DNA of 64,000 nucleotides from Mycobacterium kiyosense (GTDB lineage Bacteria; Actinomycetota; Actinomycetes; Mycobacteriales; Mycobacteriaceae). The translations under genes and the position numbers were made by a program. The DNA lies in the NCBI GenBank assembly GCA_021654635.1, contig AP025179.1:1178001-1242000 (forward strand), given 5' to 3'. Shown here in pieces: positions 514-64,000 of the stretch (its first letter is position 1; each line of letters starts with the position of its first letter). Below the pieces are notes generated by a model. That model saw only the letters and a program-made list of their open reading frames with translations. It did not search any database and was not told the origin of the DNA.

Positions 514-1369
514 ATGAGTGCTGGATTCGAACTCTTCGACCTGACCGGCCGCACCGCACTGGTTACCGGCGGCAGCACCGGCTTGGGCTATCACATGGCC
601 CGTGGTCTGCTTAAGAGCGGCGCCACCGTGGTGATCGCAGCCCGCCGCGAGTCGTTGCTGAAGGAAGCTGCCGACAAGCTTGCCGAGGAAGCCCCGCAGG
701 GCAACGTCGACATCGCGACGATCGACTTGCAGGACCGTTCCAGCATCAGCGATCTCGCTGCCGCGACCATCGACAAGTTCGGCGGCGTCGACATCTTCGT
801 CGGCAACGCCGGCGCGGATCTGTTCGAGCCCGTCGACGCCATCACCGACGAGCGGATGGATCAGATCTTCCAGATCAACGTGATGGCCAACGTCGCACTC
901 ACCCGCGCGTTCCTCCCTCGTATGCGCCAACAGAAGTGGGGCCGCCTCATCTATAGCTCGTCGACGACCAGCGTGCGCGGCTCCGCGCAGGAAGGAATGA
1001 GCCTCTACACGGCCGCCAAGAGCGCGATGAACGCGTTCGCGCGCACCGCGGCCGCCGAGACCGGTCACGACAACATCACCGTCAACACCATCGTGCTCGG
1101 CATGTACTGGACCGACATGCTTCGCGAACACCTCAAACTCGTTGAAGGCGCTGCCGGGCGCGAGGCCGTTCAAGGCTTTGAACTGTCTTTTTGCTGGCAT
1201 GACCGCCGCCGGGCGCCTGGGCGACTGCATCGAAATCGAAGGCGCCGTGCAACTTCTGGCCAGCGACGCCGGCAGCTACATCACCGGCACCAACTTCGCC
1301 GTCGACGGTGGCATGTCGAGCATGCTGCGCCCCAACGCACCCAAAGCCGAGCGCCTGCTCTACAGCTGA
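514..1369 (+). CDS. Short-chain dehydrogenase/reductase, frameshifted
   Basis: This is a classical SDR of about 284 residues after reconstruction. The cofactor motif TGGSTGLG is at residues 18-25, NAG at 98-100, and the catalytic Tyr165-x3-Lys169 pair follows a Ser-rich strand. Reading leaves frame at a run of five T (1188-1192). Removing one T gives an uninterrupted [12 protein letters not shown] join, and the other frame then supplies the standard SDR C-terminus ([13 protein letters not shown]) with a TGA at 1367-1369. AAGAGAAG upstream of the ATG at 514 serves as the ribosome site. It sits between a DapB-like reductase gene and a membrane protein gene, all on one strand. Substrate unknown. 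The single extra base is probably a sequencing error but could be a real mutation. Confidence 0.75.
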
Positions 1370-1390
1370 CCACCACCGAAAGGCACGTCG

Positions 1391-2138
1391 ATGTTGTACG
1401 ACCCCCACCAACTACTGGGCCTCATCGATCAAAACAAATGGTGGATCCTGGGCGGCTTCACGATCGCAATGATTTTTCAGTGGATCTGGCTCATCGAATG
1501 CGTTCGCGTCGCCAAGCGCGACAAGGTCTATTCGATGCCACTGTTTTGTACCTTCTTCTGGTTCGCTCACGACACCGGCTGTGTCGCGCGCTTTTACGAC
1601 TGGTTTGTCGTCTACCACCACTGGTACCTGAAATGCTTCTGGTTCGGGCTGCTCACCGCGGCGATCTTGGAGCTCATCTTTTTCGCCCAGGTCGTAAAAT
1701 ACGGTAAGGACGAACTGATCCCCGGCATCAGTACGCCGGCATTTGTGTTGGGGCTGTTGGCTTTTCAGATCGCGGCGAGCGTCACCTGGGAGTATTTCAA
1801 ATACGTCATGGACGACCCGATCTACCAGTTCACCACCACACCCACGGTCATCTCGTATTCGCTTTTCGGCGCCGCATTGATGTTCCGCCGACGTTCGACG
1901 ATCGGGCAAAACGTCACGATGTGGTGGACCTTCACTGCGATGACGGTGTTCTGGTATGCGACTGCCTGGACGTTCTACGGTGACGCCGCCCGATCGTGGC
2001 AGTGCATCGCGGCCGGGATCGTCGCAGTCACCGGGGGGTGTCATCATGACGGTGGTCATCGGCGGTAGAACACCGTGGTTCAAGCGCCTCCCGTTGAGAA
2101 CAGAGGATCCGCTGCCCGCTGTTCCTACCCCCGTTTGA
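1391..2138 (+). CDS. Seven-helix membrane protein of unknown function, frameshifted near its C-terminus
   Basis: I do not recognise the family. Translation from the ATG at 1391 gives six clear hydrophobic helices rich in Trp, Phe and Tyr, with a Glu in helix 1 (LIECV) and a His-Asp in helix 2 (WFAHDTG). As written the frame ends at 2068 in an abnormal polar tail (GCHHDGGHRR). Removing one G from the six-G run at 2033-2038 instead continues a seventh helix (TGGVIMTVVIGG) and a basic cytoplasmic tail, stopping at 2138. That restores a 7-TM topology, so I give the longer span. It starts 21 bp after the SDR stop and is probably co-transcribed. The size and topology recall integral-membrane terpene cyclases, but I see no motif that proves this. 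Confidence 0.55.
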
Positions 2139-57927: not shown

Positions 57928-59292
57928 TCAGAATGCCGCCACGGTCTGCGGGTCGCTGCCGTTGGCCGCGTATACCCCGGCTGCGGCGAAACCAAGCTCC
58001 AGGTCGGCCAGGATGTCGTCGATGCCTTCGATGCCCACGGCTAACCGCACCAGGCCGGGGGTGACGCCGGTGGCCAACTGCTCGGCGGGGCTGAGCTGGG
58101 CGTGGGTGGTGGACGCCGGGTGGATCACCAGCGAGCGCACGTCACCGATGTTGGCGACGTGACTGTGCAACCGCAGCGCGTCGACGAACGCTTTGCCGGC
58201 CTCGACACCGCCGGCCAGCTCGAAGGCCAGTACCGCACCAGTTCCCTTGGTTCCCTTGGGCGCCAACTTCTTTGCCCGCTCGTGCCAGGGCGAACCGGGC
58301 AGTCCGGCATAGTTGACCGACAGCACGTCGTCGCGGGCAGCCAGGAACTCCGCGACCCGCTGCGCATTGGCGACGTGCCGCTCCATCCGCAGGCTCAGCG
58401 TCTCCAGGCCCTGAGCCACCAGGAACGCGTTGAACGGTGAGGCCGCCGAACCGAGGTCACGCAGCAACTGCACCCGGGCCTTGAGCGCGAACGCCGGCGG
58501 CCCCAGTTCGGCGTAGACCACGCCGTGGTAGCTGGGGTCGGGCGCGGTGAAGCCGGGGAAGCGGCCCTGGGTCCAGTCGAAGGCGCCGCCGTCGACGATC
58601 ACACCGGCGATCGCGGAGCCGTGCCCGCCCAGATACTTGGTCGCCGAGTGGACCACCACGTCGGCGCCGTGGGCCAGCGGCTGGATCAGGTAGGGAGTGG
58701 CGATGGTGTTGTCGACGATCAACGGCACCCCGTTGCGGTGCGCCACCTCGGCTACCCCGGGGATGTCCAGGATGTCGATCTGCGGGTTGGAGATGGTCTC
58801 GCCGAAGAACGCCTTGGTGTTGGGTCGCACGGCCTGCTGCCAGGAGTCCAGATTGTCCGGGTCGTCGACGAAGCTGACCTCGATGCCGAGCTTGGCCAGC
58901 GAGTAGTGGAACAGGTTGTAGGTGCCGCCGTAGAGCCGGGGACTGGACACGATGTGATCACCGGCGCCGGCCAGGTTCAGGATGGCAAACGTCTCGGCGG
59001 CCTGCCCGGAGGACAGGAACAGCGCGGCCACCCCGCCCTCGAGGGCGGCGATGCGCTGCTCGACGACGTCGGTGGTCGGGTTGCCGATGCGGGTGTAGAT
59101 GTTGCCCGGCTCGGCCAGCCCGAACAGGGCGGCGGCGTGCGCGACACTGTTGAAGGTGTAGGACGTGGTCTGGTAGATCGGCAGCGCGCGGGCGTTGGTG
59201 GTCGGGTCCGGGTGCTGGCCGGCGTGGATCTGCTTGGTTTCGAACGACCAGTTCGCCGTCGGGTCGGCGGCTGCGGTGCTGTCGTTGGTCAC
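57928..59292 (-). CDS. metZ: O-acetylhomoserine sulfhydrylase
   Basis: This 454-residue PLP enzyme (Rv3340, metC/metZ/metY) makes homocysteine from O-acetylhomoserine and sulfide. Family blocks are YTRIGNPTTDVVEQRIAALEGG, LFHYSLAKLGIEVSFVDDPD, and the PLP-lysine loop VVHSATKYLGGHGSAIAG. It starts at GTG 59292 with AGGGGAAG upstream. It is the first gene of metZ-metX-methyltransferase and lies behind a SAM-IV riboswitch, so high SAM should lower its expression. Confidence 0.93.
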   Translation of the reverse strand: MTNDSTAAADPTANWSFETKQIHAGQHPDPTTNARALPIYQTTSYTFNSVAHAAALFGLAEPGNIYTRIGNPTTDVVEQRIAALEGGVAALFLSSGQAAETFAILNLAGAGDHIVSSPRLYGGTYNLFHYSLAKLGIEVSFVDDPDNLDSWQQAVRPNTKAFFGETISNPQIDILDIPGVAEVAHRNGVPLIVDNTIATPYLIQPLAHGADVVVHSATKYLGGHGSAIAGVIVDGGAFDWTQGRFPGFTAPDPSYHGVVYAELGPPAFALKARVQLLRDLGSAASPFNAFLVAQGLETLSLRMERHVANAQRVAEFLAARDDVLSVNYAGLPGSPWHERAKKLAPKGTKGTGAVLAFELAGGVEAGKAFVDALRLHSHVANIGDVRSLVIHPASTTHAQLSPAEQLATGVTPGLVRLAVGIEGIDDILADLELGFAAAGVYAANGSDPQTVAAF

Positions 59293-59355
59293 GAGAATCT
59301 TCCCCTGTCTGGCTCAGGGGCCCGTTCATGGCGGACCCGCGCTTGCCGGATAGCC

Positions 59356-59452
59356 GGTTGGGCTACTCAACCTGGTCATCACCCGGGGCACCCCACCGCG
59401 GTTGGAGGGTTGCCGGCCAGCAAGCCGGGGCTTGACGCTGGCGCTCATGACC
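59356..59452 (-). ncRNA. SAM-IV riboswitch controlling metZ-metX
   Basis: The minus strand begins GGTCATGAGCGCCAGCGTCA and continues through the conserved CCGGCAACCCTCC core and GCGGTGGGGTGCC stem to GTGATGACC. GGTCAT and ATGACC form the closing helix. A downstream hairpin (GGTTGAGTAGCCCAACC) fits the extra stem and pseudoknot of SAM-IV. This class is found mainly in Actinobacteria, and in mycobacteria before this gene. About 60 bases of leader lie between the hairpin and the GTG. A covariance search with the SAM-IV model should hit. Confidence 0.9.
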
Positions 59453-60402: not shown

Positions 60403-60467
60403 AAATCGACAGTAAATGCGGTACCGCCGGTACCGCAACCTGGGTTGGGCCCGCCGAGCGTCGCGCC

Positions 60468-60643
60468 GTGTGGCGCCGGGCGCTGGGCTGGCGTGACGCT
60501 CGAGGTCGGCTGATGCGCTGGCGTGACGCTCGCCGAGAAGGGCTGGGCTGGGCGCGTGTGGCGCCGGGCGCTGCGCTGGCGTGACGCTCGAGGTCGGCTG
60601 ATGCGCTGGCGTGACGCTCGCCGACAAGGGCTGGGTGACGCTC
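60468..60643. repeat. Two tandem 88-bp repeats upstream of trpS
   Basis: Copies at 60468-60555 and 60556-60643 share the first 75 or so bases with two mismatches, then diverge. Within each, GCGTGACGCTCG occurs twice, so the unit is itself built from shorter repeats. No gene crosses it. Confidence 0.8.
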
Positions 60644-60650
60644 GCCGAGA

Positions 60651-60690
60651 AGGGCTGGGCAGGGCTGGGCAGGGCTGGGCAGGGCTGGGC
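60651..60690. repeat. Four perfect copies of AGGGCTGGGC
   Basis: This decamer array directly follows the 88-bp repeats and ends 26 bp before the trpS ATG. It is a candidate variable-number locus and may lie in the trpS promoter. Confidence 0.85.
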
Positions 60691-60701
60691 TGGGCTCGTG
60701 A

Positions 60702-61743: not shown

Positions 61744-62781
61744 ATGAACGAGGAGGCCGCGGAGGCCGAGCCGGGGATCCTCGATCGGCTGCGGAGCCGG
61801 CACGCGTGGCTCGACCACGTCATGCGCGCCTATCAACGCTTCAGTGAGCAAAATGGCGGGTTCTTCGCCGGCGGCCTGACCTACTACACGATCTTCGCGT
61901 TGTTCCCGTTGCTGATGGTCGGCTTCGCCTCGGTCGGGTACCTGCTGTCGCGCCGGCCGGGATGGCTCAAGACGATCGACGACAAGATCACCGCGTCGGT
62001 GTCCGGCCCGATGGCCAAAGAGTTGGTGGAACTGATGAATTCGGCGATCGACGCGCGGACTTCGGTGGGCATCATCGGTTTGGCCACCGCGACCTGGGCC
62101 GGCCTGGGCTGGATTTCGCATCTGCGGGCCGCGATCAGCGCGATGTGGGCGCAAACCCCGAACGGCGACGGCTACGTGCGCACCAAGCTATCCGACCTGC
62201 TGGCGATGCTCGGCACGTTCGCGGTGACCGTGCTGAGTCTGGCGCTCAGTGCGCTCGGCCACACCGGGCCGATGCGCGCGGTGCTGAGATGGCTTCACAT
62301 ACCTGAGTTTTCGATCTTCGACCCGATGTTCCGGGTCGCTTCCATACTGGTTTCGCTGCTGGTGACCTGGCTGCTGTTCACCTGGATGATCGCCCGGCTG
62401 CCGCGGGAGAAGGTCCGGTTGGTGACCTCGATGCGGGCCGGCCTGCTGGCGGCGGTGGCCTTCGAGTTGTTCAAGCAGGTGGCGTCGATCTACCTGCGTG
62501 TCGTGCTGCGCAGCCCCGCCGGTGCGACGTTCGGGCCGGTTTTGGGGCTGATGGTGTTCGCCAACGTGACCGCCTATCTGGTGCTGTTCGCGACGGCGTG
62601 GGCGGCCACCACGCATCCCGAAGACCCGCGCGACACGCAGATCGACCCCCGCCGCCCGCGGTCATCAGCCCGCGCGTGCTGGTCGACGAGGGTCTCAGCG
62701 CCCGTCAGACCGCCGCCGCGCTGGCTGCGGGCGCCGTTGGCGCGCTGACTCTTTCGAGGTTCCTGCGAAAAAAAGCGCTAG
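61744..62781 (+). CDS. YihY/BrkB-family membrane protein, C-terminus frameshifted
   Basis: The protein has about six helices (GGLTYYTIFALFPLLMVGFASVGYLL, GIIGLATATWAGLGWISHLR, FAVTVLSLALSALG, ILVSLLVTWLLFTWMIA, GLLAAVAFELFKQVASIYL, GLMVFANVTAYLVLFATAWAAT) and the FF-GGLTYYTIF signature of YihY, once miscalled RNase BN. As written the end (PRRPRSSARACWSTR, to 62748) is abnormal. One more C in the run at 62646-62650 restores VISPRVLVDEGLSARQTAAALAAGAVGALTLSRFLRKK. One fewer A in the run at 62768-62774 then gives a stop at 62781. Function unknown. Confidence 0.82.
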
Positions 62782-63170
62782 TGCGGCCCCGCCAATTCGG
62801 CGCGCATCCGCGAGGCGAAGGCGGTGACGGCTTTGAGCGGTCGCATCATGACGGTGATCTCATCGATGAGCCCCGCCTCGCCGGTGTGGACGAAATCGCA
62901 GCCCCAGAGTTCCAGCCCATCTACCGTGGCGGTGAACCGGAAAGCGTGATCGGTTGTCCCGCACACAGATTCGGTTCCGGGTAGCTCCTTGACGAAATGA
63001 AAGTCGTCGAGGATCTTCGCTACCGTCCCGACGATGAGCGCGATGGCGTCGCGGCCCCGGTACGGCCGGTGCGTGATCGGGCTGTGCACCACGGCGTCTT
63101 CGGCGAAAATCTCGCCGATGGTGTCGAATCGGCCGGCTTCGACGGCTGCGCGGAAGGGGTGGGTGCTCAC
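62778..63170 (-). CDS. SnoaL/NTF2-like protein
   Basis: This 130-residue protein is a single NTF2-like alpha+beta cone: FRAAVEAGRFDTIGEIFAEDAVVHSPITHRPYRGRDAI, then VEL and HAFRFTATVDGLELWGCDFVHTGEAGLIDEITVMMRP. Members bind or isomerise small hydrophobic ligands. It starts at GTG 63170, overlapping the DoxX stop (GTGA), so the two are coupled. It ends where the convergent yihY is thought to end. Confidence 0.82.
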   Translation of the reverse strand: MSTHPFRAAVEAGRFDTIGEIFAEDAVVHSPITHRPYRGRDAIALIVGTVAKILDDFHFVKELPGTESVCGTTDHAFRFTATVDGLELWGCDFVHTGEAGLIDEITVMMRPLKAVTAFASRMRAELAGPH

Positions 63171-63535
63171 AGCGCCAGCCCCCGTCCCACTGCGACGAAC
63201 ACCGCGGCCGCGAAGATCAGCGCGGTCAGCGCGACGTTGCGCGGCTCGCGCAGATACGCGTGCGAGCCGACGGCACCGATCATCACCACGGCGAAGCCGG
63301 CAGCGGCCAGCGGGGTGAGGTATCTGTCGACACCGACCAGCCACGGCAGCAGAATTCCGACGGCGCCCAACAATTCGCAGAACGCGGTGACGCGAACCAC
63401 CGGCAGCGGAAAGGGGGCCACTCCCGTTTGGCCCATGGCGATCAGTCGCTCTTTGGGCTGACTGATCTTCGCCACCCCCGATACCGCGAAGATTGCGGCA
63501 AGAGTCGCCTGCAATGTCCACAGCAGTGCATTCAT
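63167..63535 (-). CDS. DoxX-family membrane protein
   Basis: This 122-residue, four-helix DoxX-like protein has LQATLAAIFAVSGVAKISQPKERLI, with the signature AKI/L segment after helix 1, then VVRVTAFCELLGAVGILLPWLVG. GGAGG precedes ATG 63535. It forms an operon with the SnoaL-like gene. DoxX proteins are linked to redox or thiol homeostasis in mycobacteria; the specific role here is unknown. Confidence 0.85.
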   Translation of the reverse strand: MNALLWTLQATLAAIFAVSGVAKISQPKERLIAMGQTGVAPFPLPVVRVTAFCELLGAVGILLPWLVGVDRYLTPLAAAGFAVVMIGAVGSHAYLREPRNVALTALIFAAAVFVAVGRGLAL

Positions 63536-63605: not shown

Positions 63606-63920
63606 TCAGCCGACGAGTTTGAGGCCGACGATGGAGCCGATCACCCCTGCGATGAGCAGCATCTTCACCGGCGAGGCCGGTTCGGCGCCGGTCAGCATCG
63701 CGTAGCCGACCGTGAGCACGGCGCCGATGCCGACCCACACCGCGTAGCTGGTCCCGGTGGGCAGGCTGCGCATCGCGATCGCCAGCCCGGACATCGACGC
63801 CACCAGCGCGACGAAGAAAACGGCGGTGGGGGCGAGTCGCGAGAAGCCGTCGGACTTCGCCAGCGCGGTGGCCCAGACGGCCTCCAGGGTCCCCGACACG
63901 ATCAATACCAGCCAGGCCAT
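63606..63920 (-). CDS. sugE: SMR-family guanidinium exporter (SugE/Gdx type)
   Basis: This 104-residue, four-helix small multidrug resistance protein has Glu13 in helix 1 (SGTLEAVWATALAKSDGFSRL), the pattern of the Gdx/SugE branch rather than EmrE. LPTGTSYAVWVGIGAVLTVGYAML and VGLKLVG complete the family match. Gdx proteins exchange guanidinium for protons as an antiparallel dimer. The ATG at 63920 has GGAGG seven bases upstream, right after a guanidine-III riboswitch, strong independent support for guanidinium as substrate. Confidence 0.9.
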   Translation of the reverse strand: MAWLVLIVSGTLEAVWATALAKSDGFSRLAPTAVFFVALVASMSGLAIAMRSLPTGTSYAVWVGIGAVLTVGYAMLTGAEPASPVKMLLIAGVIGSIVGLKLVG

Positions 63921-63934
63921 CACGCACCTCCACA

Positions 63935-63976
63935 GCGCCGTCTTTTCGCTGGCCGGGTACGGTGCGCCTCGTCCGG
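63935..63976 (-). ncRNA. Guanidine-III riboswitch (ykkC-III) before sugE
   Basis: The minus strand begins CCGGACGAGGCGCACCG, continues TACCCGGCCAG and ends AAGACGGCGC, 42 nt in all. This matches what I recall of the guanidine-III aptamer of Thermobifida with few changes. 5' CCGG pairs with CCGG of ACCCGG, and GCG-CCGT pairs with the 3' ACGG-GC to form the H-type pseudoknot. The GGAGG site of sugE lies five bases beyond its 3' end, so guanidinium binding should control translation. Confidence 0.88.
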
Positions 63977-64000
63977 TGTCAGATGTTGACCCGCTCGATG

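Follow-up and report, generated by a model that had tools for sequence, protein, structure and literature searches.

Introduction

Guanidine is a toxic compound, and in Actinobacteria the ykkC-III RNA, the guanidine-III riboswitch (Rfam RF01763), is already described in the literature upstream of emrE-type genes. The ACGA of this RNA is called perfectly conserved in the relevant text of PMC2864571, while the relevant text of PMC12186494 describes the class as acting on both translation and mRNA stability and reports its protection from RNase E. A range of about 60–200 µM is given for guanidine riboswitches in PMC9574504. Closely comparable units are found in Actinobacteria, Mycolicibacterium among them, in the neighbourhood of arr; according to the part of PMC8492726 that concerns them, some of these ykkC-III elements adjoin SMR genes. 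These units combine the same RNA with the same gene family in related genomes; the focus of that source is the nearby arr, and the promoter, the losses and the divergent guanidine-I pair treated below are absent from its relevant text. On the protein side, W62, S42 and W16 hold E13 in Gdx-Clo; of these, W16 is a conserved residue of Gdx proteins where the Qac subtype has Gly or Ala (PMC7695847, relevant text). Given the ykkC-III/emrE-type literature and PMC8492726, both the kind of RNA and its pairing with an SMR gene are already known.

The locus described here lies in a window of 64,000 nucleotides (the whole stretch of DNA that was analysed) from Mycobacterium kiyosense. An earlier note on this DNA had proposed a guanidine-III riboswitch paired with a SugE/Gdx exporter on the minus strand. 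Very probably, the exporter gene has a short transcript of its own, and a guanidine-III riboswitch at the 5′ end of that RNA turns on this Gdx-type exporter when free guanidinium accumulates.

Anatomy of the aptamer

A search with the ykkC-III covariance model, suggested in the earlier note, returned a clear match of 60.4 bits against a cut-off of 36, covering model positions 1–67 of 67, with an E-value of 5.3e-10 as computed for 64 kb against 4227 Rfam families. In the genome of 6,346,450 bases (6.35 Mb) this is the sole RF01763 match at E ≤ 0.001. As in the guanidine-III class at large, the pseudoknot, P1, P2 and ACGA are all found in the window copy (Table 1), which likewise lies directly 5′ of a ribosome-binding site and an emrE-type SMR gene. 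It differs from the class by one A–C mismatch in P2, the other six of whose seven pairs are standard as read from the sequences. The copy also carries GAAAAG, shared with 7 of the other 149 genus loci listed, where GACAAG is found in 139 of the 150.

The 42-nt minus-strand element of the earlier note is real and equals positions 63976–63935, reaching from the first strand of the pseudoknot through P2. These 42 nt are a part of the aptamer; the full RF01763 match is longer and includes P1, which had been missed. The distance from the element to the ribosome site, given there as five bases, is three, counted between P2 and GGAGGT, and 11 bases separate the aptamer from the gdx start codon (63920). 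Our analysis confirms the element as a genuine, typical guanidine-III/Gdx unit, for which guanidine binding would be expected from the family.

Table 1. Features of the gdx locus, with positions in the window.
Feature	Position	Strand	Basis
3′ half (CAT) of the −10 hexamer TAGCAT of TGCTAGCAT (candidate)	63998..64000	minus	enrichment of motif TGNTANNNT in exporter loci
Guanidine-III (ykkC-III) riboswitch aptamer	63932..63995	minus	Rfam RF01763, 60.4 bits, full length
P1 hairpin (GUCA / UGAC)	63978..63990	minus	probable 5′ end of RNA at P1; −10 box distance in relatives
Pseudoknot 5′ strand CCGG	63973..63976	minus	sequence; genus comparison
ACGA, conserved, ligand pocket	63969..63972	minus	sequence; in 149/150 genus loci listed
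P2 5′ strand	63959..63965	minus	sequence; pairing above permuted partners, clearest for pairs 5 and 7
Pseudoknot 3′ strand CCGG	63953..63956	minus	sequence; genus comparison
P2 3′ strand	63935..63941	minus	sequence
Ribosome-binding site GGAGGT	63926..63931	minus	sequence
gdx (sugE), predicted SMR guanidinium exporter, 104 aa	63606..63920	minus	PF00893; 6wk5; signature residues

The structure was compared across the genus in 150 RF01763 matches listed from 297 same-genus genomes, all of them fetched and placed by Infernal coordinates. In 148 of these loci the pseudoknot strands read CCGG/CCGG, in one they are a compensated CCCG/CGGG, and a single locus lacks ACGA and is hence unanchored in this count. 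Pairs 1–3 of P2 are invariant. The remaining pairs were set against permuted partners, a comparison that ignores kinship among the loci: among the matches listed, pair 4 is formed in 146 of 150 against 140.1, pair 5 in 106 against 82.0, pair 7 in 132 against 94.8 and pair 8 in 88 against 72.1, with pair 6 (116 against 112.7) showing an excess of less than two standard deviations.

Probable promoter and 5′ end of the RNA

Immediately upstream, at window positions 64006–63998 and mostly beyond the window edge, TGCTAGCAT is a candidate extended −10 promoter. The first three bases of its TAGCAT hexamer double as the stop codon of the gene that precedes it, read by eye as nagA, which ends five bases before the aptamer; a nagA-like gene occupies this upstream place in 17 of the 87 exporter loci listed. 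Among the matches listed, 62 of the 87 contain the motif TGNTANNNT, where base-shuffled 28-base stretches would give 1.6, and in 58 exporter loci it sits 27–29 bases before CGGACGA. It is found in none of the 60 guanidinase-like loci listed, so this type of promoter is not general to the riboswitch class. Of the 63 exporter loci having both, 50 place the first paired base of P1 5–7 bases past the hexamer. Judged by comparison, TGCTAGCAT is the probable extended −10 promoter of the gdx transcript, and since the spacing from hexamer to P1 is 5–7 bases in most of these loci, the transcript probably begins close to the base of P1.

Proposed mode of action

In the proposed mechanism, accumulating free guanidinium would stabilise the pseudoknot fold and the Gdx pump would lower cytoplasmic guanidinium, as the families of the RNA and the protein suggest. 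In between, the bound aptamer would raise gdx expression, the ON direction being that of the published class, from which the step linking binding to expression is likewise taken: the ribosome site may be freed, the RNA may be protected from RNases, or both.

A ribosome-site sequestration switch (GGAGGT/GUACC) was considered as a specific form of this step. In the predicted minimum-energy fold of the window leader, GGAGGT is buried by pairing with the conserved GUACC, which resembled a neat switch. Over the 87 loci, the accessibility of the ribosome site modelled for the unbound RNA has a median of 0.44 for native leaders, 0.41 with shuffled aptamers and 0.32 for the downstream part alone; in 43 of the 87 it is lower than the mean of the shuffles and in one it lies within the lowest 5% of them, and the corresponding values for the window's own leader are 0.34, 0.37 and 0.41. 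Permutations of anti-Shine-Dalgarno pairing in 17 divergent leaders, uncorrected, gave p = 0.02 for the 3′ side of P1 with the pseudoknot strand, 0.11 for the P2 5′ strand, 0.27 for the P2 3′ strand and 0.39 for GUACCCGG. Predicted accessibility is no lower in native leaders than with shuffled aptamers, so this control lends the switch no support; the permutation signals being weak as well, the idea was set aside.

A possible, though rather doubtful, alternative is that the aptamer is genuine and acts mainly on mRNA lifetime, with the bound knot at the 5′ terminus blocking 5′-end-dependent RNases and exposure of the ribosome site being secondary. The predicted start of the RNA at about P1, leaving almost no single-stranded 5′ tail, would suit such a role, as would sequestration no better than in shuffles and the RNase E protection reported for the class in the relevant text of PMC12186494. 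However, in the 87 exporter loci listed the aptamer lies just 9–14 bases from the start codon, which is the arrangement to be expected of translational control.

The exporter

The gene that this riboswitch would control is as described in the earlier note, with an ATG start and the extent given in Table 1. Its product matches Pfam PF00893 (Multi_Drug_Res) at 68 bits against a cut-off of 23.7, and its best matches in the PDB are 6wk5 (E 2.9e-18, the alignment spanning residues 1–102) and 8vxu (E 1e-17), followed by EmrE entries at 6.8e-8 and weaker. Both 6wk5 and 8vxu bear the title 'Multidrug resistance protein, SMR family', and we take them to be Gdx-Clo. The signature residues E13, W16, S42, Y59 and W62 are common to Gdx-Clo (6wk5) and the window protein, and all five are kept in each of the 87 riboswitch-linked exporters among the matches listed, with G10 in 85 of them. 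With 89.7 bits the protein stays under the cut-off of 126 for the NCBIfam SugE equivalog NF008512, and is therefore assigned to the Gdx subtype from its residues rather than to NF008512; in this it differs from the Gdx-Clo type, and its role as an exporter is a predicted one. One further SMR match in the same genome is distant, at 32% identity.

The pump probably expels guanidine, as its subtype suggests. That it is instead a multidrug (Qac/EmrE-type) SMR pump, with guanidine just the inducer, is most improbable: Pfam and NCBIfam do place the protein in the SMR efflux family and its score lies under the SugE equivalog cut-off, yet 6wk5 and 8vxu outscore the EmrE entries, the five signature residues are present and the gene is linked to a guanidine sensor.

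An operon of gdx with the genes for DoxX (63167–63535) and SnoaL (62778–63167) was also considered and dropped, as neither neighbour is kept; same-strand downstream copies were found by tblastn (E ≤ 1e-6, about 1.4 kb) in none of the other 86 exporter loci.

Elsewhere in the window, Rfam identifies a SAM-IV riboswitch at 59334–59452 on the minus strand (116.5 bits), preceding a 454-aa open reading frame (57928–59292) that resembles O-acetylhomoserine sulfhydrylase and then a metX-like one, both named by eye. Overlapping tandem repeats with units of 88, 30, 24, 10 and 5 bases are present at 60467–60696, just before trpS, and overlap an opposite-strand open reading frame that by eye is alpha/beta-hydrolase-like.

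Distribution of the riboswitch–exporter pair

Across the 297 same-genus genomes, RF01763 matches 170, with 166 of these over the cut-off. Downstream of the 150 riboswitches listed, tblastn finds an exporter in 87 cases, an arginase-family guanidinase-like gene in 60 and an MBL-fold gene in 3; the family was checked on five proteins, by Pfam for two of the 60 arginase-family members and for all three MBL-fold ones. Counted from the side of the exporter, 136 Gdx-like rows of at least 90 bits among the matches listed, minus 15 second genes of tandem pairs and excluding SMR matches under 90 bits, leave 121 heads of transcription units. RF01763 lies over cut-off upstream of 107 of these heads, a figure made up of 87, 8 and 12 from three scans; among the other 14, three have a match below the cut-off of 36 (L262 with 35.5, L245 with 34.5 and L242 with 30.3 bits) and 11 have no match at E ≤ 1.

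From the named loci, the best 80 of 558 were fetched and the first 40 of those scanned for RF01763. The riboswitch is directly upstream in 39, and Gordonia, Rhodococcus, Arthrobacter, Cellulomonas and Microbacterium are among the genera represented; L175, with 36.1 bits, is a borderline case against the cut-off of 36, and L163 is the single scanned locus without an upstream riboswitch. The pairing is common among relatives, and the arrangement in the window is therefore ordinary. The riboswitch–Gdx unit of the earlier note is thus supported by the covariance match, by the Gdx signature and by a pair kept across most of the genus and of the scanned actinobacterial loci; for this species we infer guanidine binding by the RNA, regulation, and export by the pump.

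Tandem Gdx-like SMR pairs, which possibly form two-subunit exporters, occur at L249, L250 and L253–L265 and are headed by weaker guanidine-III matches (35.5–45.2 bits). A mutual exclusion of exporter and guanidinase within a genome was considered, both being present in just 4 genomes among the matches listed, yet it was dropped because the riboswitches of tandem SMR pairs sit in genomes that also have a guanidinase-like gene, for example G204 and G139.

Guanidinase-like loci and divergent guanidine-I riboswitches

The guanidinase-like protein of L017 matches PDB 9fek at E 6.1e-152 and 7esr/7oi1 at E 2.4e-148. The latter are titled 'Probable agmatinase 2', and 7oi1 is presumably the guanidine hydrolase GdmH. 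Genes resembling that of the 7esr/7oi1 enzyme are the ones lying, by tblastn, downstream of 60 of the 150 genus riboswitches listed, the two proteins checked being of the arginase family. The genome of the window has no guanidinase-like homologue at E ≤ 0.001.

Guanidine-I and guanidine-III are unrelated riboswitch classes that are paired back to back in 32 relatives. Over cut-off, 41 guanidine-I matches are listed in the genus, and 32 of them are divergent from a listed guanidine-III riboswitch at a distance of 113–227 bases, with a guanidinase-like gene on the guanidine-III side in all 32; 28 of the 60 guanidinase-like loci listed have no guanidine-I partner over cut-off. At L009, guanidine-I (1291–1387, minus strand) stands back to back with guanidine-III (1501–1564, plus strand), an arrangement similar in 31 further genus loci, and the gene on the guanidine-I side of this one examined locus is a sodium:solute symporter.

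Other arrangements are seen at individual loci. In L138, L139 and L148 guanidine-III lies directly before an MBL-fold gene, a target unseen in the other 147 loci listed, the protein of L139 being glyoxalase-II-like. In L114, L142, L144, L145, L150 and similar loci the aptamer lies roughly 90–120 bases before the guanidinase-like start. The loci of this subgroup carry GGCGCGCC at the front of the aptamer and again shortly behind it; the two copies could pair, which hints that the expression platform differs here.

Exporters without a riboswitch

Intact exporters without a working-looking riboswitch recur within the genus. A nagA-like gene leads directly into gdx with no aptamer between them in L233, L234 and L235, and gdx also follows a nagA-like gene with no aptamer in L238 and L243. 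L252 retains a promoter-like motif and the ribosome site, the aptamer being absent. In L239 and L240 the promoter-like motif stops seven bases before the start codon, so these genes may be leaderless. L246, L248 and the second copy in G292 have no RF01763 match upstream at E ≤ 1, while L242 and L245 are without the part of the core that contains ACGA. The five signature residues are intact in all 12 loci checked, namely ten without an RF01763 match together with L242 and L245.

The history of these cases was followed on a protein tree of 108 rows and 105 columns, which holds 108 of the 121 heads, including 4 of the 15 tandem heads and neither G292 copy, and in which 54 of 103 inner branches are open. 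A minimum of 9 changes between presence and absence of the riboswitch is required on it; several are split by supported forks, the exact number being unsure. From the wide presence of the riboswitch/gdx pair we infer loss rather than gain. Of the ten riboswitch-less genomes that were rescanned, seven have RF01763 over cut-off nowhere, and the other three (G103, G137 and G132) have it elsewhere in the genome. The same three are those with guanidine-I over cut-off among 13 genomes checked; G007, G232 and G246 have guanidine-I matches below cut-off (51.5–55.1 bits), so other guanidine control may exist there.

Such cases, with the nagA-like gene stopping five bases ahead of the window aptamer and running straight into intact gdx in L233–L235, might suggest that most gdx transcription comes through from the nagA-like gene and that the riboswitch is a relic, but this is very hard to credit for the window copy, which retains the conserved aptamer elements and the promoter motif at its common position. 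For a riboswitch that starts its own transcript, the chances seem evenly balanced that in mycobacteria it is a self-contained module from the transcription start, disposable, and lost or broken independently several times with the exporter left intact. The routes in that even-handed proposal would be placement of gdx directly after nagA, disappearance of the aptamer behind a promoter-like motif, possibly leaving a leaderless gene, and shortening of the core.

Concluding remarks

The window adds one well-supported instance of predicted guanidine sensing and export in mycobacteria, and the comparative observations are the useful part of the analysis. If the riboswitch is indeed a disposable module, the genus would hold a natural series in which exporters blind to guanidine stand next to sensing ones. 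The intact exporters without a riboswitch, together with the paired guanidine riboswitches, offer ready-made strains for questions of guanidine exposure and of the need for regulated export.
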